This document shows positions 1,461 to 15,547 of a stretch of DNA of 32,352 bases, piece after piece. Position 1 is the stretch's first letter. Every line of letters begins with the position of its first letter. This DNA is from an uncultured Bacteroidales bacterium (GTDB lineage: Bacteria > Bacteroidota > Bacteroidia > Bacteroidales > WCHB1-69), in contig CAJOQK010000143.1 of NCBI GenBank assembly GCA_905236885.1, forward strand, positions 1 to 32,352. Direction: 5' to 3'. Below the pieces are notes generated by a model, which searched no databases, was not told the origin of the DNA, and worked only from the letters and a program-made list of their open reading frames with translations. Position numbers and translations under genes: made by a program.

Positions 1461-2489
1461 ATGCGGATCCTGAAATGTGAACGTGCCTGGTTGTGCCTGT
1501 TTTTAGGGCTCTTCTTCCGGATGGCGGAGGCGCAGGATTTGCATTGTTCCCAATTCTGGATGAATGCGATGCGTATCAATCCGGCCACTACCGGACTTAT
1601 TGAAGGTCAGATCAGGGCGGGACTTTACAGCAGAACCCAGTGGATTTCGGTGACCAAACCATATCAGACCAATGGGGTATGGGTGGAAGCACCTGTCTGG
1701 AAACGTAAGGTTTACCAGGATATTTTCGGAGCCGGTTTGTCAGTGGACCGTGATCAGGCCGGAGACTCCAAGTATCGCACGTGGCAGATGTATGGCTATT
1801 TTTCTTATTCTAAATCATTGAATTACAGAAATAACCATTTTCTTTCCATAGGGGCTTCCGCCGGATTGTCGCAACGGCAGTTCAATGTGTCGGATTTGAC
1901 TACGGACGAGCAGTTCCAGGGTGGAATTTTTAATCCGGAAATTCCGTCAGGGGAGGTTTATCCGCAAACCAGTTTCTTTTATCCTGATTTGGGTGTTGGG
2001 GTGCGCTGGTTTTACAAACCAAACCTCTGTGCTTTTGATGCCGGTCTCAGCCTGTGGCACCTCAATCGTCCGCCGCAGTCCATGCTAAAAGATCCGAATA
2101 TCCGTCTTCCGATGAAATACACCGCACAGTTCCAGCTGCATTTTCCCATAGCCGCCACCTTTTCCCTGACACCGGCACTCTATTATAGCCGGCAGCAGCG
2201 CTACAATGAGGTTATGTTCGGATTTCTGGCCTCCTATCTGTACCGTGTGGATCCCAGAGGGGATGGCAGACGCTGTTTCTTTGGGCTGGATTACCGGGTG
2301 CTCGATGCAATATATCTGGTGACTGGGCTGCAATGGAAACAGTTCCGTCTGCAAATGAGTTATGATTTCAATGTCTCAGCCTTGTCTAAAGCCTCCCATG
2401 GGAGGGGCGGTTTTGAGTTGAGTGCTGTCTATTTGTACAAAAGACCATATTCCCAACATTATTATAAAATGCCATGTCCAATATTTTAA
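1461..2489 (+). CDS. PorP/SprF family type IX secretion system outer-membrane protein
   Basis: Signal peptide, then QDLHCSQFWMNAMRINPATTGLIEGQIRAGLYSRTQW, typical of the PorP/SprF N-terminus; beta-barrel-like remainder. Confidence 0.88.
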   Translation: MRILKCERAWLCLFLGLFFRMAEAQDLHCSQFWMNAMRINPATTGLIEGQIRAGLYSRTQWISVTKPYQTNGVWVEAPVWKRKVYQDIFGAGLSVDRDQAGDSKYRTWQMYGYFSYSKSLNYRNNHFLSIGASAGLSQRQFNVSDLTTDEQFQGGIFNPEIPSGEVYPQTSFFYPDLGVGVRWFYKPNLCAFDAGLSLWHLNRPPQSMLKDPNIRLPMKYTAQFQLHFPIAATFSLTPALYYSRQQRYNEVMFGFLASYLYRVDPRGDGRRCFFGLDYRVLDAIYLVTGLQWKQFRLQMSYDFNVSALSKASHGRGGFELSAVYLYKRPYSQHYYKMPCPIF

Positions 2490-4756
2490 GAATGAAACGG
2501 AAAGGATTTTGGACTTGGATGTGCAGCTGTCTGTGCATGTTGCAGGTACAGGCGCAGGTTAGCGACTTGCAGCAGGCCGCCTATTGGGAGGGGAAAGGGG
2601 ATTTTGCAACAGCCGCCGCCTATTACGAGGATTACTTGCGGGTTGCCGCCGAGCCTGGAATGGAAATCCGCTTTGCATACGCGCACTGCTTGCGACGGTT
2701 GTATGAGTACCGGCAGGCGGAACGACCGTATGCCATGGTCTGGGAAAATGCCGGGACGCAATATCCTGATGCCCTTTTCTACCTTGCACTTATGAAAAAA
2801 CACCGTGCTGTATATGATTCCGCACTTATGCAGTTCCGGCTTTATGGCCAGATGCCGTCGGGGGATGCTGTCCTGAAGCGGCGTGTGCCGATTGAGATTG
2901 AGGGATGTCAGCAGGCCGTGGAGGATTTGAAGCGTCCTGCGGATTGCAGGATATGGGCTCCGCCGGTAAATTCGGGCTATTCGGAGTTCAATGCGCGGCT
3001 TTCGGATGATTCGCTGCTCTATTTTTCCGCCATGCGCCATATGACACAGAATGGAGCTGTGCAATGGATTGGGGATTATTACCAGTCGCAGATTTACAGT
3101 TATTCTTTGCGGAATGGTGGACAACCGAAACCGCTTCCGCGTGTGTTGAACCATCCTAAATACCACAATGCAAATGCTTGTTTCAACGCAGCACAGACCC
3201 GTATCTATTTCACCCGTTCTCCGTTGGAAGGTGCGACAGATGGTGCTGCTGAGATTTGGGTGTCAGAAAAAAAAGAGGGGAAATGGCAAAAGGCCTGGCG
3301 TTTGGATGAGCCGGTGAATCTTCCGCAATCGGTCAGCACGCATCCTTTTGTGTGTCAGATTAATGGAAGAGATGTGCTTTATTTTGTCTCTGACAGGGCC
3401 GGAGGTAGGGGCGGCTTGGACATTTGGTATGCCGTGCAGGATACCGATGGAAGGTTCCGTGAGGCGACCAATGCCGGTTCCGTCATCAATTCCGAAGGAA
3501 ATGAAATCACCCCTTTCTACCATTCTGCCACTCATACGCTCTATTTCAGTTCCGACCATTATGCGGGTATGGGCGGCTATGATATTTTTGCGGCGGAGGG
3601 AGGCCTCAGTGCTTGGAAACAGCCGTTGCGTCATCTGCCGCCTCCATTTAATTCACCTGCAAATGACCTCTATTTTATACTGACGGAGAAGGAGGGGAAT
3701 GGCTTTTTCTCCTCTAACCGCCATTCCCCTTACGCCTTAAGCGATGCAGCCTGCTGCAATGACATTTACGCCTTTTCCCTGCCAGAAAAGAAGAGACGGG
3801 TGGTTCGCAGGGATACCTTGTGGGCGGAAAGCGCGGCCACAGTTTCAGCCAAATCCTTGCTGCCTCTGACCTTGTATTTCCATAATGACGAACCGGATCC
3901 CCGTTCCCTTTCTGACACTACTTTGTTGGACTACCAACGCACATTGCAGGACTATTTGGCGTTGCAGCAACGATATGAAAAGCAGTCAGCACAGGGTTAT
4001 GAGGATGCCGCCGCAGTGTATGCTGTGGTTGCGGTCCGGCGTTTTTTTGAGGATTCCCTTTCCGGTGCCTACCGCAAATTGCAGGATTTCATGGATTACT
4101 TACGGCAGGATCTTACCGCAGGACACCATGTCTACATCCAAATCGACGGTTTTGCCAGCCCCCTTCACACCTCCGAATACAACAGGCATCTCTCTTCCCG
4201 GCGTATCCAGTGCCTGTGGAACAGCCTTTGCGGTTACAGGCAGGGCTTTTTCCTCCCTTACCTTCGTAGCGGACAGCTTAAAGTGGCCAAACGGCCGCAG
4301 GGCAAGGAGCTGGCTAAGGCTTCGGTGAGCGAAGATCCGGGTGACCTTTCCCGCTCGGTCTACAGTATTCCGGCTGCTTTGGAACGACGTATCCAGATTA
4401 CCCGTTATGAGTCGGATGCCTCTTTGGGAGAATCCGAAGAGTTCCCCCTCAGTATGCCTGACACCAATCTGTCGCTTCTTGAACACAAGGGAACCGATCT
4501 CTACGAACTCTCCCTGCAGCTGAAGAACCGGGGAGGGGAGACGATACAGTTGGACGGATTCCGTGCTGATGGGGAAAACGTAAAAATCCGTTGTGAACAA
4601 CTTCAGATAAAACCGGATGAATATCTGTTTCTTACAATAGAATATCCGGCAGAAGTCTTTGATGACCATTCTTCAATTGCTATTGTTTTTAATTGTAAAT
4701 CAAATAATTGTATAAGAAAAATCCGCTTCCACACCACCTTTTTAAAACAAAAATAA
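2474..4756 (+). CDS. TPR / PD40 (WD40-like) / OmpA-like envelope protein with C-terminal ASH/DUF1573-like domain
   Basis: Signal peptide (alternative start at 2492), TPR-like N-terminus, PD40-like FVSDRAGGRGGLDIWYA and YFSSDHYAGMGGYDIFAAEGG, OmpA-like IDGFASPLHTSEYNRHLSSRRI, final Ig-like region LQLKNRGGETIQLDGFRADGENVKIRCEQLQIKPDEYLFLTIEY. Confidence 0.8.
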   Translation: MSNILRMKRKGFWTWMCSCLCMLQVQAQVSDLQQAAYWEGKGDFATAAAYYEDYLRVAAEPGMEIRFAYAHCLRRLYEYRQAERPYAMVWENAGTQYPDALFYLALMKKHRAVYDSALMQFRLYGQMPSGDAVLKRRVPIEIEGCQQAVEDLKRPADCRIWAPPVNSGYSEFNARLSDDSLLYFSAMRHMTQNGAVQWIGDYYQSQIYSYSLRNGGQPKPLPRVLNHPKYHNANACFNAAQTRIYFTRSPLEGATDGAAEIWVSEKKEGKWQKAWRLDEPVNLPQSVSTHPFVCQINGRDVLYFVSDRAGGRGGLDIWYAVQDTDGRFREATNAGSVINSEGNEITPFYHSATHTLYFSSDHYAGMGGYDIFAAEGGLSAWKQPLRHLPPPFNSPANDLYFILTEKEGNGFFSSNRHSPYALSDAACCNDIYAFSLPEKKRRVVRRDTLWAESAATVSAKSLLPLTLYFHNDEPDPRSLSDTTLLDYQRTLQDYLALQQRYEKQSAQGYEDAAAVYAVVAVRRFFEDSLSGAYRKLQDFMDYLRQDLTAGHHVYIQIDGFASPLHTSEYNRHLSSRRIQCLWNSLCGYRQGFFLPYLRSGQLKVAKRPQGKELAKASVSEDPGDLSRSVYSIPAALERRIQITRYESDASLGESEEFPLSMPDTNLSLLEHKGTDLYELSLQLKNRGGETIQLDGFRADGENVKIRCEQLQIKPDEYLFLTIEYPAEVFDDHSSIAIVFNCKSNNCIRKIRFHTTFLKQK

Positions 4757-4773
4757 TAAAACTATTTTATTAT
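4753..4773. repeat. Perfect AT-only inverted repeat ATAATAAAA-CTA-TTTTATTAT
   Basis: Read directly; 9-bp arms, 3-nt loop, spanning the end of the OmpA-like gene and the dnaA upstream region. Confidence 0.7.
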
Positions 4774-4797
4774 ATTCAGTTTTTTAACATATTGGTT

Positions 4798-4806
4798 TTA
4801 TTCACA
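4798..4806 (+). promoter_or_regulatory. DnaA-box-like TTATTCACA
   Basis: Exact match to TTATNCACA in the AT-rich region upstream of dnaA. Confidence 0.5.
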
Positions 4807-4893
4807 ATTGATTGTTGAAAAATGGCCGTTTTTAATAGCAAAAAATTCTTTTGTTTTTTTCTAAAATGATTTTTTTCTGCACTTTTTTTTTGT

Positions 4894-4901
4894 TACTTTT
4901 G
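4894..4901 (+). promoter_or_regulatory. Bacteroidota -7 promoter element TACTTTTG upstream of dnaA
   Basis: TAnnTTTG match in TTGTTACTTTTGCATATACC, upstream of the dnaA start. Confidence 0.6.
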
Positions 4902-4996
4902 CATATACCAATTAGTGTGTGAACAAAAAAAATAAAAATTTATTTATCAAGTAATTGCATTTATTTGAGAGAATAAATGCGGCGATGCGAAAAAGT

Positions 4997-6475
4997 ATGA
5001 TTGTAGAGGAAATGAAGGAAGTAAAAACTGATTATCAGATAATTTGGAATGAATGTCTGAAGATTGTCAAGGCCAATATCAGCAAGGAGCATTTCGAGAC
5101 ATGGTTCCGTCCTATCGAGCCAGTCTCCATCGACCAGCAGAAACTGACCATCCAGGTGCCGTCGATGTTCTATTACGAATTTATAGAAGGAAACTTTTGG
5201 CAGCTGCTGAAAACCGCAATCCACCGTGTCATGGGGCCGGATGGAAAATTGGCCTACAGCGTTGTTGTGCAGAATGGGAAAACCAATAAGGACAAGAAGA
5301 CGCTGACGTTACCGCATTCCTCTACCGGTGTCAGCCAAAACCAGTCCGCCTTGCCGCCGATGCTGTCGGATCCCATGGATGAAAACAAACAGGGGAGGCA
5401 GATTGTCAATCCGTTCGTCATTCCTGGTATACGCCCTCTGAACATCAATTCCCGCCTGAACAAAGAGCTGAACTTTGACAATTTTATCGAAGGGGAGTGC
5501 AACCGTCTGGCTCGCGCCGCAGGTTTTGCCGTTGCGAAGGATCCCGGAAAAACAGCCTTCAATCCTCTTTTCATCTATTCGGATGCGGGGTTGGGCAAAA
5601 CACATCTGCTTCATGCCATCGGATTGGAAACCAAGGCCAATTTTCCAGAAAAAACAGTTCTTTATGTGGATGCGGAAACGTTTCTGCAACAGTATGTTGA
5701 AGCTGTCAAAAGCAACAATGTCAATGATTTCGTCCATTTTTACCAGGTTATTGACGTGCTGCTCATTGACGATATCCAGTTTTTGTCGGGCAAAACCAAG
5801 ACCCAGGAGGTTTTCTTTCATCTGTTCAATTTTTTCCAACGGGAGAACCGCCAGCTGGTCATAACTTCCGACAAGGCTCCTTCCGCCATCGTGGGTTTTG
5901 AGCAGCGTCTGGTTTCACGCTTCAAATGGGGGCTTTCCGCCGATTTGCAGATTCCGGACAAGGAGACAAGGGTGCGCATCATCCGCAGCAAACTGGTCAA
6001 TAATGGTTTCGCTGAAATAGATGAAGAGGTGATCAACTATCTGGCCTACCGTATTGTGACCAATGTGCGGGAAATCGAAGGTGCCCTGATCTCCATTTTG
6101 GCCCAGTCCTCCCTCAATAACCAGACTATCACAGTGGATTTGGCCAAGCAGATGATAGACAAGTTCGTTCAGAATACCATCCATGAGATTTCCATTGACT
6201 ATATCCAGAAAGTGGTGTGTGACTATTTCAATATTCCGGTATACCAGATGCTCTCCAATTCGCGGAAAGGCGAAATTGTGCAGGTGCGTCATACCTCCAT
6301 GTATTTTGCAAAAAAATACACCAACCTCTCTTTGGCGCAAATAGGTGCCCGTTCAGGGGACAAGGACCATGCGACGGTGCTGCATGCCTGCCGTTCCGTT
6401 GAGAACCAAAAGTCCACCAATGCCAAATATGCGGCTGATTTGAACAATATTGACAAAATATTAAAGAACGCATAA
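4997..6475 (+). CDS. dnaA: Chromosomal replication initiator protein DnaA
   Basis: N-terminal IWNECLKIVKANISKEHFETWFRPI; Walker A YSDAGLGKTHLLHAIG; LLIDDIQFLSGK; C-terminal DKDHATVLHACRSVE. The ORF extends to 4955; an internal Met start is likely. Confidence 0.97.
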   Translation: MIVEEMKEVKTDYQIIWNECLKIVKANISKEHFETWFRPIEPVSIDQQKLTIQVPSMFYYEFIEGNFWQLLKTAIHRVMGPDGKLAYSVVVQNGKTNKDKKTLTLPHSSTGVSQNQSALPPMLSDPMDENKQGRQIVNPFVIPGIRPLNINSRLNKELNFDNFIEGECNRLARAAGFAVAKDPGKTAFNPLFIYSDAGLGKTHLLHAIGLETKANFPEKTVLYVDAETFLQQYVEAVKSNNVNDFVHFYQVIDVLLIDDIQFLSGKTKTQEVFFHLFNFFQRENRQLVITSDKAPSAIVGFEQRLVSRFKWGLSADLQIPDKETRVRIIRSKLVNNGFAEIDEEVINYLAYRIVTNVREIEGALISILAQSSLNNQTITVDLAKQMIDKFVQNTIHEISIDYIQKVVCDYFNIPVYQMLSNSRKGEIVQVRHTSMYFAKKYTNLSLAQIGARSGDKDHATVLHACRSVENQKSTNAKYAADLNNIDKILKNA

Positions 6476-6545
6476 CATAGGTTTTACATTTCCTTTTTTT
6501 GACCGTTTGGCACAGTGTTTGTAATATCCGGCGAAAAATTACGGA

Positions 6546-9014
6546 ATGAGAAGGATTATTTTAGTTTTGTTATTGTGTGGTCTGAGCTGGATTTCCAATG
6601 CCCAGGAAGGTGGTGTTCGTGCTTTTGTAAGTGACGGAAAAACCTCTGAGCCGCTTGAATACGTTTCAGTGCGTGTAATGGATTCCAAAACGAATACTTT
6701 GGTCAAGGGCGCCTTCACAGATGGGAAGGGTTATTTCCATATTGACGGACTGGCGGAGGGCAAATATGTGCTGTTGGTTAAATCCGTGGGTTACGATTCT
6801 TTACAAATTCCCTTTGTGATTTCCTCCCAATCTCCCATTGTTAATTTCAAACATTTGAAAATAAATCAAAACCAAAAAGTGTTAGGGGCTGTGGATGTGG
6901 TTTCCCAACGGTCGCAGATGAGCTTGGAGGTGGACAAGAAGGTCTTCAATGTGGATCAGGCACTGACTACGGCGGGCAGTTCAGCCAGTGAACTGCTGGA
7001 GACTATCCCTTCGGTGGAAGTGGATAATGAAGGCTCCATCTCTTTGCGTGGAAACACAAATGTCACGATTTGGATTGACGGAAAGCCTTCTGGCCTGACG
7101 GCGGATAATCAGGGACAGATTCTGGAGCAGATGCCAGCCGAAAATATTGAGAAGATTGAGGTAATTACCAATCCTTCCGCAAAATTCAGTCCGGAGGGGA
7201 GCAGCGGCATCATCAATATTGTGCTTAAAAAGGACAAACGCAAAGGCTATTACGGAAGCGTGCAGGCCGGCAGCAGTGTGGACAATGACGGGCACTTTGG
7301 AGCCAATCTGAACGCCAACATCAACTATAATTCGTCCAAATGGGACGCCTATTTGAATGTCGGGTTCCGGCACGGAACCTTTTCTCGGCATGAGCGTACG
7401 GACCGTACCAATTTGGATGCCAACGGGGATTCTGTCTCATTCGTCAACCAAAGCGCACACCATGTCTCTCCGGGAAACCACCTGTTTGCCCGCGGCGGAG
7501 TGACCTATCATTGGACCGACAGGGATCAGATAGGATTGGATTTGATGGGTAACGTGGGCGGACGCGGAGGAAACAACCTCAACCTTTATACCTCCAATGT
7601 GGTGGGTTTGTACGACACCAGCTGGCGTTACAACAATTCTGATAATTCAAATTACGGAGGAAGCGTCTCTTTGACATACCGGCACAAATTCAATTCCCAA
7701 TCCACATTGGATCTCTTGGGTTCGTTCAACCGATGGAATATGGATAGGGATGCCTTTTACCAGCAGACATACAATGCCTCTTTTTCCTCAGACACTACGG
7801 TTCAGGAGCAAAAAAGCAATGTTTTTTCCAATTTCTGGACTTTGCAGGCGGACTATTCCAACCAATTGTCTGAGAAAATCAAGCTGGAGGCCGGATACAA
7901 GGGGGAATGGCAGGGGGAGGAGAGTCCTGTCTCCACTTTCAATGGCCCTCGAAAATCTGCCTTGACTGAGGATTATTCACTCTACAATGACTATTTCTAT
8001 GACCGGAATGTGCAGGCGTTGTATGCCACCTTTTCCCATAAAATCAGCCAGTTCTCCTATCAGTTGGGTTTGAGGGGCGAGTTGACCGATGTGCACACGC
8101 AGTCATTGGCTTATGGCCAAACCAGGAGTACAGCACCCACCTACGACACTACCTATTTCAACTTTTTTCCAAGCCTGTTCTTGAGTTATGCGCTACCGGG
8201 CAACCATGAGGTGCAGGTGAACTATACACGCCGTATCAGCCGTCCGAGAGGGGACCGTTTGAATCCTTTTGTACAGTTGCAGGACACCATGAACATCTCG
8301 TTTGGAAACCCCTATCTGTTGCCGGAATATTCCAATTCATTGGAATTAAATTATTTGAAAAATTGGAATCTGCACACCATATCGGTTTCGCTCTACTATC
8401 GCAACACGGATAATGTCATTCAGCGCATCCGTTACAGGGACGGGCAGGTGATGAAGAGCACCCATGTGAATGTGGCGCACGAGCAGCGTACCGGTTTGGA
8501 ACTGATTTCTAAGAACACCCTTTTCAAAGTGTTGGATTTGACCACCACGCTGAACTTTTTCTATAATGTGATGGATTCATTCGCCTACTGGCCGGAAAAC
8601 AATCCTTCAATGGCGGTGACAGATCCGGGAAGCGAGACTTTTGCCTGGAATGCGCGTATGATGGGGAGCATTATGCTGCCGGCCAATTTCACCTTGCAGC
8701 TGACGGGACATTACGATGCTCCGAGGCTGGTGGCACAGGGCAGGCGGATGGCCAGTTTCGGCTTTGACGCCGGTTTGAGAAAATCATTCTGCAACAGGAA
8801 GTGGAGCCTTAATGTCAATGTGCGCGACCTGTTCAACACCCAGCGTTGGCATACCATTACCGAGGGAGCCGGTTTCTATCAGGATTATGAGGGATGGCGT
8901 GGGCGCAATGTACGCATTTCCCTTACCTACAGCTTTGGTAACATGCGGGCCAAACCTGACATGAAACGGATGGAAAACAGTTCCACCGGATATGAGGAAA
9001 GTGAGGATATGTAA
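6546..9014 (+). CDS. TonB-dependent-receptor-like outer-membrane beta-barrel protein with CarboxypepD_reg-like N-terminus
   Basis: Signal peptide; VRAFVSDGKTSEPLEYVSVRVMDSKTNTLVKGAFTDGKGYFHIDGL; plug-like LLETIPSVEVDNEGSISLRGNTNVTIWIDGKPSGL; IEKIEVITNPSAKFSPEGSSGIINIVLKK; barrel C-terminus. Confidence 0.92.
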   Translation: MRRIILVLLLCGLSWISNAQEGGVRAFVSDGKTSEPLEYVSVRVMDSKTNTLVKGAFTDGKGYFHIDGLAEGKYVLLVKSVGYDSLQIPFVISSQSPIVNFKHLKINQNQKVLGAVDVVSQRSQMSLEVDKKVFNVDQALTTAGSSASELLETIPSVEVDNEGSISLRGNTNVTIWIDGKPSGLTADNQGQILEQMPAENIEKIEVITNPSAKFSPEGSSGIINIVLKKDKRKGYYGSVQAGSSVDNDGHFGANLNANINYNSSKWDAYLNVGFRHGTFSRHERTDRTNLDANGDSVSFVNQSAHHVSPGNHLFARGGVTYHWTDRDQIGLDLMGNVGGRGGNNLNLYTSNVVGLYDTSWRYNNSDNSNYGGSVSLTYRHKFNSQSTLDLLGSFNRWNMDRDAFYQQTYNASFSSDTTVQEQKSNVFSNFWTLQADYSNQLSEKIKLEAGYKGEWQGEESPVSTFNGPRKSALTEDYSLYNDYFYDRNVQALYATFSHKISQFSYQLGLRGELTDVHTQSLAYGQTRSTAPTYDTTYFNFFPSLFLSYALPGNHEVQVNYTRRISRPRGDRLNPFVQLQDTMNISFGNPYLLPEYSNSLELNYLKNWNLHTISVSLYYRNTDNVIQRIRYRDGQVMKSTHVNVAHEQRTGLELISKNTLFKVLDLTTTLNFFYNVMDSFAYWPENNPSMAVTDPGSETFAWNARMMGSIMLPANFTLQLTGHYDAPRLVAQGRRMASFGFDAGLRKSFCNRKWSLNVNVRDLFNTQRWHTITEGAGFYQDYEGWRGRNVRISLTYSFGNMRAKPDMKRMENSSTGYEESEDM

Positions 9015-9027
9015 GGAAAAATCTTCC

Positions 9028-9056
9028 AAAATCCGCCGTCAGGACGGCGGATTTTT
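9028..9056 (+). terminator. Rho-independent terminator of the TonB-receptor-like gene
   Basis: AAATCCGCCGT-CAGG-ACGGCGGATTTTT hairpin plus T-tract just after the stop codon at 9014. Confidence 0.85.
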
Positions 9057-9148
9057 CGTTTGTATGCTTCATATTCGGATACTAAAAAATTAAAAGATAG
9101 TGAAATAAAAATATTTTCAAAGAAAGGGTTGCGTATTGGTAAAATGAC

Positions 9149-9156
9149 TACTTTTG
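9149..9156 (+). promoter_or_regulatory. -7 promoter element TACTTTTG of tRNA-Gln
   Basis: TAnnTTTG match 14 nt upstream of the tRNA; TTG at 9129-9131 is a plausible upstream element. Confidence 0.65.
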
Positions 9157-9169
9157 CATATCAAAAAAA

Positions 9170-9240
9170 TGCCCAATGGTGTAATGGTAGCACTACAGAT
9201 TCTGGTTCTGTCTGTATGGGTTCGAATCCTATTTGGGCAA
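9170..9240 (+). tRNA. tRNA-Gln (anticodon CTG)
   Basis: Acceptor TGCCCAA/TTGGGCA; anticodon stem ACAGA/TCTGT with loop TTCTGGT; T-loop GGTTCGAATCC. Confidence 0.9.
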
Positions 9241-9241
9241 C

Positions 9242-9272
9242 AAAAAAGAGATGTGACAAGCATCTCTTTTTT
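9242..9272. terminator. Bidirectional terminator between tRNA-Gln and the PHP gene
   Basis: Perfect 12-bp stem AAAAAAGAGATG / CATCTCTTTTTT with 7-nt loop TGACAAG. Confidence 0.85.
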
Positions 9273-9999
9273 ATTTTTTAGAAGTCCCCTTATCAGCCAA
9301 AAATTGTTTGAATTTTTCCGGCCAAAAGTTCATGACAAGGGCATCGGGAAAATCAGTCTCCGCCAACAGCGGCCAGATTCTTTCATAATCGGCCACCTGG
9401 TAGGAGACATGTGCGTCACTGCCCAATATGACTGGCACATCATATTTCTTGCAATAGCGTAAAATATCCAGATTATTGGGGCGTGACGTCAGTTTGTCGC
9501 GGAAAGGTGCCATGGAATGGTTGTTGATTTCCAGCAGGGTGTGTGCGGCTTTGGCGGCCAGGACAATGGGCTCGAAATCCAAATCAGCCGTTCCGTCTCC
9601 CGGATGGGCGATGATTTGTATGTAAGGGTTCTTTATGGCGGCAATCATGCCTTTTGTGTTCTCTTCCCGGCTGCCTCCTTTCCAACAGATTGAATGGATG
9701 CCCGCAATGCGGATTTCCAGTTTGTCCATCATCTCTTCCCCAATGTCAATGTGGCCTTCTGTGTCCAAAATGTTGATTTCGCATCCCATCAGGAGTCTGA
9801 CCCCATTGATTTCTTTCGGGATGACTCCCATATTCTTGAAATAGAGCAGGGGACAGGTGCCGGGGATTGATGGACCGTGTTCGGTGATGCCCAACATTTG
9901 CAAACCCTTGTCCGCCGCAGCCTGTACCATCTCCTGCAAGCTGCTGTAAGCGTGTCCGGAAGCGACAGTATGTGTGTGTATGTCTAATAATGGTCTCAT
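9271..9999 (-). CDS. PHP-domain phosphatase/phosphoesterase (YcdX-like)
   Basis: DIHTHTVASGHAYSSLQEM, GITEHGPSIPG, IIAHPGD, ILGSDAHVSYQV metal-binding motifs. Confidence 0.9.
   Translation of the reverse strand: MRPLLDIHTHTVASGHAYSSLQEMVQAAADKGLQMLGITEHGPSIPGTCPLLYFKNMGVIPKEINGVRLLMGCEINILDTEGHIDIGEEMMDKLEIRIAGIHSICWKGGSREENTKGMIAAIKNPYIQIIAHPGDGTADLDFEPIVLAAKAAHTLLEINNHSMAPFRDKLTSRPNNLDILRYCKKYDVPVILGSDAHVSYQVADYERIWPLLAETDFPDALVMNFWPEKFKQFLADKGTSKK
9277..9292 (-). repeat. Copy A of the dispersed repeat TAAGGGGACTTCTAAAA, within the 3' end of the PHP gene
   Basis: Reverse complement of TTTTAGAAGTCCCCTTA; shares TAAGGGGACTTCTAAAAA with copy C. Confidence 0.75.
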
Positions 10000-10017
10000 G
10001 GTTAATCTTATTCAAAT

Positions 10018-10785
10018 TTATTTTACCAAATGCTGTGTCAGATGGACAAAATCGGCCACAGACAACTGCTCCGGTCTTTTCTGGAAAATCGGTTCTTCGG
10101 TAAAGCTCTCCTCAAACCGGAAACCCTTCAGGGAGTTCCGCAAGGTTTTTCTCCTTTGGTTGAAGGCGGTTTTGATAAGCGTTTTCCATTGCTTCTCATT
10201 GCAGTCCAAATGGGTGCAGCTGTTGCGCCTCAGCCGGATGACAGCGGATTTCACTTTTGGTGGCGGGTTGAACACCTCTTCATGTACCGTAAAAAGGTAT
10301 TCTATGTCGTAATAGGCCTGGAGCAGAACGCTCAGGATACCGTAATCGCGGCTGCCCGGTTTGGAGGCGACACGTTCGGCCACCTCTTTTTGGAACATAC
10401 CCACAAGCTCTGGAATCTCCTCTTTGTAATCCAACAGCTTAAACAGGATTTGGGAGGAAATGTTATAGGGAAAGTTGCCGATAATGGAAAAAGGCGGCTG
10501 CATAAACAGGGTAAGGTCTGTTTTCAGAAAATCCTGCGCGTGGAGCCGCGAGCCCAGTTCGGGGAAATGCTGCCGCAGATAGGCGACCGACTCCTCGTCC
10601 AATTCAATGGCATGCACCTCCGTGTTAGGGAGTTGTAGCAGATATTGGGTCAGCACACCCATACCCGGGCCGATTTCCAGCACCCTTTCCGTCTCAGGGG
10701 CGAGTGCTGCCACAATCTCCTGAGCTATACCCAAATCGGTCAGAAAATGTTGTCCCAAACGTTTTTTTGCTTTTACCTGATACAT
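10018..10785 (-). CDS. rsmA: 16S rRNA (adenine1518-N6/adenine1519-N6)-dimethyltransferase
   Basis: KKRLGQHFLTD; VLEIGPGMGVLT; IIGNFPYNISSQILFKLL; NPPPKVKSAVIRL. Confidence 0.96.
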   Translation of the reverse strand: MYQVKAKKRLGQHFLTDLGIAQEIVAALAPETERVLEIGPGMGVLTQYLLQLPNTEVHAIELDEESVAYLRQHFPELGSRLHAQDFLKTDLTLFMQPPFSIIGNFPYNISSQILFKLLDYKEEIPELVGMFQKEVAERVASKPGSRDYGILSVLLQAYYDIEYLFTVHEEVFNPPPKVKSAVIRLRRNSCTHLDCNEKQWKTLIKTAFNQRRKTLRNSLKGFRFEESFTEEPIFQKRPEQLSVADFVHLTQHLVK

Positions 10786-11999
10786 TGTTCAGTTGTTTTT
10801 TTGTGGTATTGGAAGCAGCTGTCCAGTTGCGGAATCCGTTTTTGGATGTAGGCTGTCATAATATCCAGTTCTTGCGTGTAACTGTTGGAATCATAGTATT
10901 GTGGCGCATTATATGGCCATTTTTCCGCATTGTGCAGGACGGCTTCCCTAATTATTTTGTCATTATTTGCCACCATTTCCTTGAAATGGGAGACGGAGAA
11001 AATACCATTGTCCCGCAATTCTTTCCATCGTGTTTTCAGCTGTTCTTCATAATTTAGGTCCGGAATCTGCCGGAGCCGTTTCAGCAATATGGAGCGTTCG
11101 CAATCCACGTTACGTTCCAGCATGTTAAGTTCGTTATCCCCATCCCTGCCGAAGCTGTGGTCGTAATCCCAGGGTACGATGCGGAACGGGGTCTGCTCCG
11201 ATTTTTTGTAGAGATAGAAATTTTTCATCACACCGTCCCCATTGTTGGTGTAAAGCAGCAGCAAATGCCAGTCAATGACATTGGAAATGTCAATCCATTG
11301 GCCGATTTCTTTGGCAAACAGGCTGTCCGGTGCATTGAAAAGGAAATCCATGAAGGATTCCATGTAGGCGTTCATGTCCGCTTTTTTCAGTTTCGGATAG
11401 GTCTGTTGGAAATAGTTGTCCGGCTCCTGCGGGGTGATCCGGTTTTCTCCCCAGAAAAGTGGCGGATCCTTGAAAATCATGGCCATGCTCTCTTTTTTGT
11501 CAAGACCGAGCCGTTGGGCGTTGATTTTATCCATAATCACATAAAGGCCTTCATACTGGCCGTTGAGATACAGGTTGGCATAGCTGCATTCCGCCGCTTC
11601 GTTTTCGGGGCTCATGGCGCGGAATAGGTCATAACTGATTTTGTGCCGCATCAGGGTTTTGTCAATATAGGTGGCGTTGATGATGAAGCTTTTGGCCTCC
11701 TTCAAACCGGCCAACGGGTATTTTTCCGTCAGTTTCAGGCTGAAGGAATGTTTGGGATAGCCGCTGGAAATGCCGCCCCTGAATTTGATGCTTCCAAAAA
11801 TGGTATCTGTAATGCCTTGATTGGTTGTAATGATGTCGCAATGTTCCTTTTTGTCCCAACATATCCCATCACTAAAAATGTAGATTGTGGGAATGCGGGG
11901 TTCTGTTTTGCCCTTGTTGATATTCCATATACAGATCGCTCCTCCTGATAATAGTATAAGGAGCAGAACAAATCCACATATTGTTTTATGCCGGCACAT
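10773..11999 (-). CDS. CotH-like kinase family protein, membrane-anchored
   Basis: N-terminal TM; IKFRGGISSGYPKHSFSLKL; NLYLNGQYEGLYVIMDKI; FRIVPWDYDHSFGRDGD. The 3' end overlaps the rsmA start. Confidence 0.88.
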   Translation of the reverse strand: MCRHKTICGFVLLLILLSGGAICIWNINKGKTEPRIPTIYIFSDGICWDKKEHCDIITTNQGITDTIFGSIKFRGGISSGYPKHSFSLKLTEKYPLAGLKEAKSFIINATYIDKTLMRHKISYDLFRAMSPENEAAECSYANLYLNGQYEGLYVIMDKINAQRLGLDKKESMAMIFKDPPLFWGENRITPQEPDNYFQQTYPKLKKADMNAYMESFMDFLFNAPDSLFAKEIGQWIDISNVIDWHLLLLYTNNGDGVMKNFYLYKKSEQTPFRIVPWDYDHSFGRDGDNELNMLERNVDCERSILLKRLRQIPDLNYEEQLKTRWKELRDNGIFSVSHFKEMVANNDKIIREAVLHNAEKWPYNAPQYYDSNSYTQELDIMTAYIQKRIPQLDSCFQYHKKTTEQCIR

Positions 12000-12144: not shown

Positions 12145-14454
12145 ATGAAAGAACATCAATCAGTGAAAATCCTGTCAGTCGTCTGTGGCCTGCTTTTCCT
12201 TTCCCTGTGGGTGAAGGCGCAAACTCCGGTCTCTTCTGTGGATAAAACCATATCCCAAATGAGTTTGGAAGAAAAAGTCTCAATTTTGCTCAACCAGTCG
12301 GAAAAGTATGCCATCCGATTTGCTGATGCCTCCTGTGGGGTGGCCCTCTATTCGTCAGAAGAACCAAATAAGCTTTCCGCAACAGCTTTCCCTGTTCCCT
12401 TTGTCCTCGCCTCCTCATGGAACAAGGAGCTGGCGATGCGGGTTGGCATGGCTGTGGCCAGGGAAGCGGCAGGAAAAGGGGTGAATGTGGTTTTTGCCCC
12501 CTCTTTGAACCTGATTCGGAATCCGCTTTCAGGGAACATTTGGGACTGTTATTCGGAAGATCCGGTGCTGGCCGGCTGCATGGCCTATGCCTTCCAAAAC
12601 GGGCTCCATTCCCAAAAAATACCTTTTTGTATCCGTTATTTCGGACTGAACAATCAGGAAAAATGGTGTGTCAATCTGAATCTGCTGATTGACCAACGCA
12701 CTTTGAAAGAATTTTACCTGTATCCTTTCGAAAAGGTGTGCAATGGACAACCGCAGCCATGGGGCATACTTGCTGCCTGCCCACATATCAACGGGAAGCC
12801 TGTGGCGGAGAGTAAGGCACTGGTGTATGACTTGTTGCGCGTTGCCTGGAAATATGACGGATTGGTGCTGGCCGAAGCCTATGGAGGAGAGCATGTGGCG
12901 AATATGTTACATGCTGGTACTGACTGGATTTTGAAAAGTGGTGCCGGACAAAAAGACTCCCTGATTAGGGCGGTTCGTGATTCATTGCTGTCTGAGGAAG
13001 AAATAGACGCACACCTGCGCCGCTTCCTTATGGCACGTCAGTCCATGACAGGGAAATCTGCACGAAATGAGGAAAACGGACATTCGCTGGCAGTGGAGGC
13101 TGCGGCGGAAAGTGTGGTGATGCTTAAGAATTTGGATGCGGCACTGCCTTTGGCCTCTACGGTAAAAAAGGTGGCTTTTTTCGGAGTCTCTTCCTATCGT
13201 TTTATCCAAACTCCGAACTGCACTGCGGAAACAGGTGCCTATCGTGTGCAGGCTTCACAACATCCCTCTCTTGTGAACTTGTTCCTGCAGGCTGGATATG
13301 CGACGGATCAGGCATTGGTAAATGCCTATCTGAATCATTTGAAAACTTATCTTCCGGAAGAGAAAAAGGAGGAGAAGCCCCAAACGCCGATGAAAAGCGG
13401 AAATGCGACGCCGACACCTGCAAAAAATGGAACTGTTACGCCTGCTAACCGACCCAAACCGCTCTCCGGAGAGGAAAAAATGAAGGTAGACTTGAAAAAA
13501 GTGGCAGCTATCCCTTGCGACCAACCGTTGGCAGAAATGCGGGTCAGCAAATCCACAGCATTACAGTATGTTAAAACCACTCAAGCGGGTATTATCCTCA
13601 TAGGTCATCACCGTCAGGCGGGGCAGGACCGGACACTGGAGAACGGATACCGTCTTTCCGAGGAGGAACGGGAACTTATAAGGCAGGTTTGTGCCGCCTA
13701 CCACACCTGGGGTAAAAAAGTCATTGTGGTGCTGAATACGGACGGACCTGTGGAAATGACGGATTGGCAGGAATATCCGGATGCAATTCTCTTTTGCGGT
13801 CTTTCCGGTCAAGGAGGAGCGGAAGCACTCATGAAGATTATTACCGGAAAAATTTCGCCTTCTGGAAAACTGAATATGGTGTATGCCAAAAGTTATGAGG
13901 ACTATCCCTCCGCTGATTTCGTTCCTCACGGAGACGTGGCTGCACACAAAATTGGCTCTGAGGAGATGGTGGAGGAAATCAACTATGGGGAACGTTTCCG
14001 TAACGGTTACCGTTATTTTGACGAACATCAGGGAAAAGTGTTGTATCCGTTCGGTTTTGGCTTGAGTTACACTACGTTTGCCTATGACAAGATGAGCATG
14101 CAGCGCAAAGGGGATTCAGTGTTAGTCAGCGTTCGAGTCACCAATACTGGAAAGGTGACTGGTAAGGAGGTGGTTCAGCTGTATGTGAGTCCGCAGCGTA
14201 AAAACCTGAAAATAGAGCGTCCATTGAAGGAATTGAAGGATTTTGCCAAGACATCATGGCTGAAAGCAGGAGAGAGCCAACAGCTCACTTTGCGTTTTTC
14301 GATAGACGATTTGTCGGTGTTTGATGACAGCAGGGACTGCCGGATTACCTATGCGGGCAATTACACCTTGAAGCTGGGTTCCTCCTCCCAGGAGATCCAA
14401 TTGCAGTATCCGTTACAATTGACGGAAGACAAAATTATAGCGAACATTTTTTAA
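12145..14454 (+). CDS. Glycoside hydrolase family 3-fold secreted protein, probably with degenerate active site; C-terminal fibronectin-III-like domain
   Basis: Signal peptide; GH3 framework MSLEEKVSILL...FVLASSWNKELAMRVGMAVAREAAGKGVNVVFAPSLNL...YSEDPVLAG...NNQE...TLKEFYLYPFE; C-terminal YPFGFGLSYTTFAY...VTNTGKVTGKEVVQLYV. Confidence 0.9.
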   Translation: MKEHQSVKILSVVCGLLFLSLWVKAQTPVSSVDKTISQMSLEEKVSILLNQSEKYAIRFADASCGVALYSSEEPNKLSATAFPVPFVLASSWNKELAMRVGMAVAREAAGKGVNVVFAPSLNLIRNPLSGNIWDCYSEDPVLAGCMAYAFQNGLHSQKIPFCIRYFGLNNQEKWCVNLNLLIDQRTLKEFYLYPFEKVCNGQPQPWGILAACPHINGKPVAESKALVYDLLRVAWKYDGLVLAEAYGGEHVANMLHAGTDWILKSGAGQKDSLIRAVRDSLLSEEEIDAHLRRFLMARQSMTGKSARNEENGHSLAVEAAAESVVMLKNLDAALPLASTVKKVAFFGVSSYRFIQTPNCTAETGAYRVQASQHPSLVNLFLQAGYATDQALVNAYLNHLKTYLPEEKKEEKPQTPMKSGNATPTPAKNGTVTPANRPKPLSGEEKMKVDLKKVAAIPCDQPLAEMRVSKSTALQYVKTTQAGIILIGHHRQAGQDRTLENGYRLSEEERELIRQVCAAYHTWGKKVIVVLNTDGPVEMTDWQEYPDAILFCGLSGQGGAEALMKIITGKISPSGKLNMVYAKSYEDYPSADFVPHGDVAAHKIGSEEMVEEINYGERFRNGYRYFDEHQGKVLYPFGFGLSYTTFAYDKMSMQRKGDSVLVSVRVTNTGKVTGKEVVQLYVSPQRKNLKIERPLKELKDFAKTSWLKAGESQQLTLRFSIDDLSVFDDSRDCRITYAGNYTLKLGSSSQEIQLQYPLQLTEDKIIANIF

Positions 14455-14488
14455 GCTAAAGAACATATTTCTAAAACGAGAAGATTTG

Positions 14489-15547
14489 ATGAAGGAATTG
14501 AATGAAACCTCCGTAAAGGAAGCTCTTTCCCATGTCAATGACCCGGATTTGGGTCGGGATTTGGTGAGTTTGAACATGATTGATAATATCGTGATTCAAG
14601 GAAAAAAAGTAAGTTTTAACCTGGTGCTGACCACACCTGCCTGTCCCATGCGGAACCAGATGAGGGAAGAGTGTGTCGCTGCCATCCGCCAACACTTTGG
14701 CGATGAAGTGGAGGTGGAAGTGAATCTGACCGCCCAAGTGAAGGCGGCCGCTTCGGATAAAACTGCTTTGACAGGGGTGAAGAATGTCATTCTGGTCGCT
14801 TCCGGAAAAGGTGGCGTGGGCAAATCCACCGTTGCGGCAAACCTGGCGGTGGCTTTGGCAAAATCGGGTGCCAGGACAGGTTTGCTGGACGCCGATTTTT
14901 ACGGCCCCTCCATCCCTATGATGTTCCAGTTGGGACAGCAGCAGATCATGGGAGCCGAAAAGGATGGGAAAACCATGATGCTTCCAGTCGTGCGTTATGA
15001 TGTGCAGCTGATGTCTGTCGGTTTTATGATGGATCCCTCCAAAGCGTTGGTTTGGCGTGGTCCGATGGTCTCCTCCGCCTTGAAGCAATTGGCGGCGGAA
15101 ACCGCTTGGGACAGGGTGGATTATCTTGTGGTTGACCTGCCTCCCGGAACTGGGGATGTGCAGCTTACAATTGCGCAAAGTCTGCCGGTCAGCGGTGCTG
15201 TGATTGTGAGTACCCCACAGCAGGTTGCTTTGGCGGATGTGATACGTGCTGTGGAAATGTTCCAGGCACCGGAAATACATATCCCAATTTTGGGCTTTGT
15301 GGAGAATATGGCATATTTTACACCAGCGGAACTGCCTGATAACAAATATTATATTTTTGGAAAAAATGGGTGTCGGAATCTGGCTACCCGCATGGGCATT
15401 CCTTTTCTGGGGGAGATTCCGTTAGTCCAGTCCATTACGGAGGGTGGTGATGCTGGAGAACCGGTAGCCTTGAGGGAGGATACAGCCGAAGGCCGTGCCT
15501 TCCACCAATTGGCGGGTGAGGTGGCCAAACAGTTGGCCATGCGTTGA
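14489..15547 (+). CDS. Mrp/NBP35 family P-loop ATPase (iron-sulfur cluster carrier)
   Basis: N-terminal DUF59-like domain; VASGKGGVGKSTVAANLAVALA; DADFYGPSIPMMF; DLPPGTGDVQLTIAQ. ORF track starts at TTG 14486; ATG at 14489 is likelier. Confidence 0.95.
   Translation: MKELNETSVKEALSHVNDPDLGRDLVSLNMIDNIVIQGKKVSFNLVLTTPACPMRNQMREECVAAIRQHFGDEVEVEVNLTAQVKAAASDKTALTGVKNVILVASGKGGVGKSTVAANLAVALAKSGARTGLLDADFYGPSIPMMFQLGQQQIMGAEKDGKTMMLPVVRYDVQLMSVGFMMDPSKALVWRGPMVSSALKQLAAETAWDRVDYLVVDLPPGTGDVQLTIAQSLPVSGAVIVSTPQQVALADVIRAVEMFQAPEIHIPILGFVENMAYFTPAELPDNKYYIFGKNGCRNLATRMGIPFLGEIPLVQSITEGGDAGEPVALREDTAEGRAFHQLAGEVAKQLAMR

Follow-up and report, generated by a model that had tools for sequence, protein, structure and literature searches.

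The window analysed here, a stretch of 32,352 nucleotides, encodes a protein that is solidly a member of GH3 by fold and sequence family and whose most likely state, judged from its residues, is that of a pseudoenzyme, since it combines the fold of an enzyme with the loss of the catalytic residues. The best explanation, to which a probability of roughly 0.6 is assigned, is that catalysis was lost stepwise and in place, which would have left a GH3-fold protein that is exported, no longer catalyses a reaction and is retained for interactions made by its sandwich and FnIII domains. Of the elements of this explanation, homology, the loss of residues and its focus in the barrel, orthology, a graded series of relatives and coding constraint are shown directly.

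The GH3 fold and the altered active site

The reading frame (Table 1) opens with ATG and contains no internal stop codon, and its product scores above the Pfam cut-offs for GH3_N (79 bits, residues 78-295), GH3_C (105 bits, residues 324-642) and Fn3-like (65 bits, residues 675-748); Pfam finds no carbohydrate-binding domain in it. The probable signal peptide, called by eye rather than with a predictor, is a hydrophobic helix ending in VKA-QT. The closest solved proteins by sequence are BglPcC1 (8IDZ, 365 bits) and Thermotoga neapolitana Bgl3B (TnBgl3B; 2X40, 346 bits), while none of the NCBIfam equivalogs of characterised GH3 activities passed, the best being NF041610 with 342 bits against a cut-off of 1300. 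AlphaFold was run on an alignment of the window protein with three congeneric orthologs and six viral-contig GH3 fragments; the resulting model has a pLDDT of 65 and a pTM of 0.69 (pLDDT 39 with a 4-row alignment), and its best fold matches are 2X40-2X42, with TM-scores of 0.70-0.76. Residues 59-79, 119-137, 166-185, 355-371 and 490-500 are of low confidence and include active-site loops, and the alignment is shallow, so the model is used for the fold only. The original prediction had described an intact reading frame, a signal peptide and a promoter-like element; the frame is borne out and the signal peptide is probable. The promoter-like element was rejected: a sigma-70 scan gave no plus-strand hit and a total number of hits as expected by chance, and the region preceding the GH3 gene contains no instance of the TTTG/TANNTTTG pattern of the Bacteroidetes type.

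The -1 subsite of the GH3 enzyme GlyA1 is formed by Asp532, Arg597, Lys630, His631, Arg641, Tyr677, the nucleophile Asp709, the stacking Trp710 and the acid/base Glu143, and the D709A change by itself brings activity below detection (PMC5104943). GlyA1 served as the reference for this subsite and for the variable loop treated below; its equivalence with TnBgl3B was set by motif, and the window protein was placed by alignment. The TnBgl3B residues, which we take to be Asp58, Arg130, Lys163, His164, Arg174, Tyr210, Asp242, Trp243 and Glu458, correspond in the window protein to D61, N131, R164, Y165, C175, C212, E244, A245 and A492, so that only Asp58 is kept (1/9). All nine positions are invariant in 13 canonical Bacteroidales GH3s, and the window protein keeps 91 of the 145 other columns that are invariant in this set against one of the nine (Fisher p = 0.003). 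With a subsite set of 12 residues, composed of the published nine and three additional positions, the counts are 1/12 against 91/142 (p = 0.0002), and among the columns kept by at least two of the three orthologs they are 1/7 for the subsite against 80/100 for the others (p = 0.0007).

Five motif changes had been read by eye in the original prediction, which proposed alignment to characterised GH3s. That alignment confirms all five at the stated residues (among them N131, R164-Y165, E244 and A492), finds eight of the nine subsite residues changed with D61 kept, and extends the list with A67, C175, L209, C212, A245, the missing GGTGSG glycine-rich loop and a deletion of about 29 residues. The deleted segment, VPGAAGxT..IPRLGIP in other GH3s, lies just before the DGPxGxR loop and is defined relative to the orthologs. 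The nucleophile motif of the family, (M/V)(S/T)DW, is replaced by E244 in the context LAEAY, and the window protein lacks the nucleophile Asp, the acid/base Glu of the sandwich domain and the -1 subsite that characterize a GH3 enzyme. With these residues, hydrolysis by the retaining mechanism of GH3 enzymes is highly improbable, because the nucleophile Asp, the acid/base residue and the glycon network are gone.

Table 1. Features of the GH3 locus and related genes; positions refer to the window except where another contig is named.
Feature	Position	Strand	Basis or remark
Degenerate GH3 protein: signal peptide, TIM barrel, alpha/beta sandwich, FnIII	12145..14454	+	769 aa
Probable Sec signal peptide, MKEHQSVKILSVVCGLLFLSLWVKA-QT	12145..12219	+	By eye; N-termini alike in 3/3 orthologs
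DGPxGxR loop as ADASCGVA; D61 kept, Arg (Arg64 of TnBgl3B) to A67	12322..12345	+	Alignment
CGRNFEYYSEDP motif as SGNIWDCYSEDP; Arg130 to N131	12529..12564	+	Alignment
KHFxxNNQETNR motif as RYFGLNNQEKWC; Lys to R164, His to Y165, Arg174 to C175	12634..12669	+	Alignment
MSSY motif as LAAC; Met207 to L209, Tyr210 to C212	12769..12780	+	Alignment
Nucleophile Asp242 to E244; stacking Trp243 to A245	12874..12879	+	Alignment
Low-complexity insert, residues 405-439, in variable loop of sandwich domain; genus-wide	13357..13461	+	Alignment
Acid/base motif SGEGxDR as RQAGQDR; Glu458 to A492	13612..13632	+	Alignment
FnIII-like domain, residues 675-748	14167..14388	+	Pfam; conservation equal to that of orthologs
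Mrp/ApbC-type P-loop protein, downstream neighbour in all four species	14486..15547	+	Orthology marker only
Sole other GH3 gene of the window genome, on separate contig C86	16305-17249	-	Counterparts in three congeners

The sandwich domain also departs from that of canonical GH3s in one loop. In active members of the family this loop lies next to the active site, is variable and mobile, and bears a Trp that probably forms part of the +1 subsite (PMC5104943). The region of approximately residues 400-470 is 69-89 residues long in all four orthologs of the genus against 28-37 in canonical GH3s. A TP-rich linker interrupting the sandwich, as first described for the window protein, is real but not unique to it, since a low-complexity insert is carried by 4/4 orthologs.

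Orthologs and graded loss within the genus

The genus comprises four species in the genome set, each represented by one genome (that of the window being a MAG) and each encoding one such GH3 protein. The three congeners, the MAGs UBA1195, RUG11939 and RGIG8373 (the latter from water-buffalo rumen), were located by an alignment search of the genome contigs, while a single-sequence search gave no relative; the source of the window is itself probably a rumen bacterium. In all four species the Mrp/ApbC gene follows the GH3 gene immediately and in the same orientation, and a tree places the four genus members on one side of a branch, opposite the canonical GH3s, with support of 100/100. Upstream of the window GH3, a CotH-kinase-like gene (10773-11999, minus strand) is divergently oriented, and a SulP-type transporter occupies this place in the three congeners. 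Near dnaA, an OmpA-like protein (2474-4756, plus strand) has a sub-cut-off match to PorE of the type IX secretion system (169 bits against 600).

Outside the genus, a family-level search returned one canonical-type homologue at E <= 1e-60, an order-level sample contained only ordinary GH3s, the highest at 367 bits where the window protein scores 1289, and a phylum sample gave no relative at E <= 1e-112. A search of other genera of the family for a GH3 beside Mrp, as a view of the ancestral state, gave no ortholog fit for use at the threshold applied. Within the four genomes, whose MAG completeness is 79-98%, neither a duplicate of the window GH3 nor any other beta-glucosidase-type GH3 gene was seen. 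One further PF00933 protein is present in each of them; the window genome's other GH3 protein has 969 aa, with a GH3 part that by eye is NagZ-like and not of the beta-glucosidase type, followed by an apparent beta-lactamase-type serine hydrolase.

The congeneric orthologs resemble the window protein in the Mrp locus, the domain order, the position of the insert and part of the losses: in all four members His164 is replaced by Tyr, Arg64 and the canonical glycine-rich loop are lost, and Trp243 is absent (Arg in the three congeners, Ala in the window). They differ from it in keeping the nucleophile Asp (3/3), the acid/base Glu (2/3) and four to seven of the nine subsite residues. The UBA1195 ortholog keeps six (Asp58, Arg130, Lys163, Arg174, Asp242, Glu458), that of RUG11939 keeps seven, with its acid/base Glu beside a one-residue insertion, and that of RGIG8373 keeps four, the aligned acid/base Glu being absent and a Glu lying one residue off. 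Judged by these residues, the UBA1195 and RUG11939 orthologs could have kept activity, perhaps on other substrates or with a changed preference among them. The original prediction had proposed a search for orthologs with the same substitutions, and its outcome is mixed: the glycon-site damage is genus-wide, but the loss of the nucleophile belongs to the window lineage only.

Selection on the gene and rival readings

What the window protein has lost beyond its orthologs lies in the barrel only, and its C-terminal domains match theirs. Counted over the columns invariant in the 13 canonical Bacteroidales GH3s, 41 of 87 barrel positions are kept in the window protein against 57 in UBA1195, 61 in RUG11939 and 52 in RGIG8373, whereas C-terminal positions are kept to 40 of 48 against 40, 37 and 39, respectively. 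The terminal branch of the window protein measures 1.09 changes per column, that of RGIG8373 0.46 and those of the other two 0.22-0.31, on top of a branch of 0.19 that these two share; for the neighbouring Mrp, dN between the window and each congener is about equal (0.18-0.19). Neutral drift to just 90% identity would introduce, on average, four to five stops, which makes the open frame incompatible with such drift. The GH3 gene appears to have been under purifying selection over the whole branch, most strongly in the sandwich and FnIII domains, in agreement with the original view that this does not look like random decay. Since dS between the window gene and its relatives is saturated, selection may nevertheless have relaxed recently.

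The gene also evolves fast between UBA1195 and RUG11939, with dN of 0.26 and dN/dS of 0.14. DNA identity in this pair is 92-97% on both sides of the GH3 gene and mostly 55-77% within it. An allele-exchange island at the GH3 gene was considered and rejected, as its dS of 1.78 is near the background in the approximately 31 kb compared, where many ordinary genes have dS of about 0.6-1.7. A block of about 8 kb from Mrp to UvrD (RUG11939 contig, approximately 3050-10950) has dS of only 0.13-0.28 against UBA1195; one of its edges is the GH3/Mrp boundary, and it probably reflects recent recombination.

A dying beta-glucosidase gene, in which selection on the whole gene is already relaxed and the intact frame is temporary, is favoured by the branch of the window protein, the longest in the clade, by the deletion of about 29 residues with the additional barrel-invariant losses, and by the low need expected for a GH3 once catalysis is gone. 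This reading is improbable given that the C-terminal invariants stand at the level of the orthologs and that the stop codons expected under drift are absent. Less probable still is a lectin that binds carbohydrate in the former active-site pocket. Such a role is the fate usually proposed for secreted pseudo-glycosidases, and it would suit the predicted export and the intact FnIII domain; it is opposed by the Pfam result on carbohydrate-binding domains and by the loss of the glycon-holding residues (Arg130, Lys163, His164, Arg174, Tyr210 and Trp243). These losses make it unlikely that the old pocket binds sugar, and they also weaken the sugar-binding role suggested at the outset.

The least probable of the readings, and a very doubtful one, is an active enzyme of altered chemistry or specificity, using E244 as the nucleophile or a new pocket with cysteines 162, 175 and 212. 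E244 does keep a carboxylate at the nucleophile position, which counts against the best explanation, and C162 and Tyr165 are fixed in 4/4 orthologs. On the other hand, the acid/base residue and the glycon-binding network are both absent, and the Cys content of 1.6% equals that of neighbouring proteins, which makes the cysteines a weak signal; the new chemistry raised in the original prediction found no positive evidence. A cysteine-lined pocket as a metal or redox site was set aside as speculation for the same Cys content.

With the sandwich, FnIII domain and signal peptide preserved, the most economical reading is that the protein is exported, has no catalytic function and works through its C-terminal domains, whose role is suggested by their conservation. 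We infer the inactivity of the protein, its export and the order of the losses from sequence. The starting point would have been an exported, single-copy gene of the beta-glucosidase type adjoining Mrp in the genus. Losses common to the genus would have taken away the His and Trp that bind the glycon, together with the DGPxGxR and glycine-rich loops, and a low-complexity insert would have taken the place of the loop that bears the +1-subsite Trp in active GH3s. In the window lineage, Glu would have replaced the nucleophile Asp and Ala the acid/base Glu, and the Arg, Lys and Tyr residues still left to bind sugar would also have disappeared. The end product would be a periplasmic non-catalytic protein engaged in protein- or envelope-level interactions through its sandwich and FnIII domains. 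A broader version, possible but held only tentatively, is a genus-wide change in place and without duplication, in which none of the four pockets is a glucosidase site any longer, the insert loop, sandwich and FnIII domain carry a new envelope function, and the orthologs represent successive steps of catalysis loss.

Relation to known proteins and significance

TnBgl3B (2X40-2X42) and BglPcC1 (8IDZ) have the same order of barrel, sandwich and FnIII as the window protein, but they possess the Asp/Glu pair and the full -1 subsite, and differ from it in having the segment before DGPxGxR and in lacking the low-complexity loop insert. GlyA1 is a ruminal GH3, like the presumed source of the window, but is active and has a permuted domain order (PMC5104943). 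The viral-catalogued contig IMGVR_UViG_3300027864_000896 carries apparent tandem GH3s with the sandwich/FnIII part ahead of the barrel, as in GlyA1. Glycosidase pseudoenzymes as such are already known: GH28 pseudoenzymes of Phytophaga beetles have lost activity, are still important to the organism, and belong to multigene families in which duplication placed them beside active paralogs (PMC6549527). The window GH3 is of another family and fold, and the four genomes yielded no active paralog from its subfamily. Among the open-access papers searched, GH3 and pseudoenzyme are named together in one only, an effector screen.

The congeneric series at one syntenic locus, with partial, partial, further and nearly complete loss, constitutes a natural experiment. 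It would represent a route from glycosidase to non-enzyme without the usual gene duplication, in four proteins of which each step is testable. It is also a warning for annotation, as Pfam or GH3 counts would label the window protein a beta-glucosidase. Since relatives in the genus stand at earlier stages of the same loss, this GH3 gene has apparently been retained for a role different from the sugar cleavage of its ancestors.
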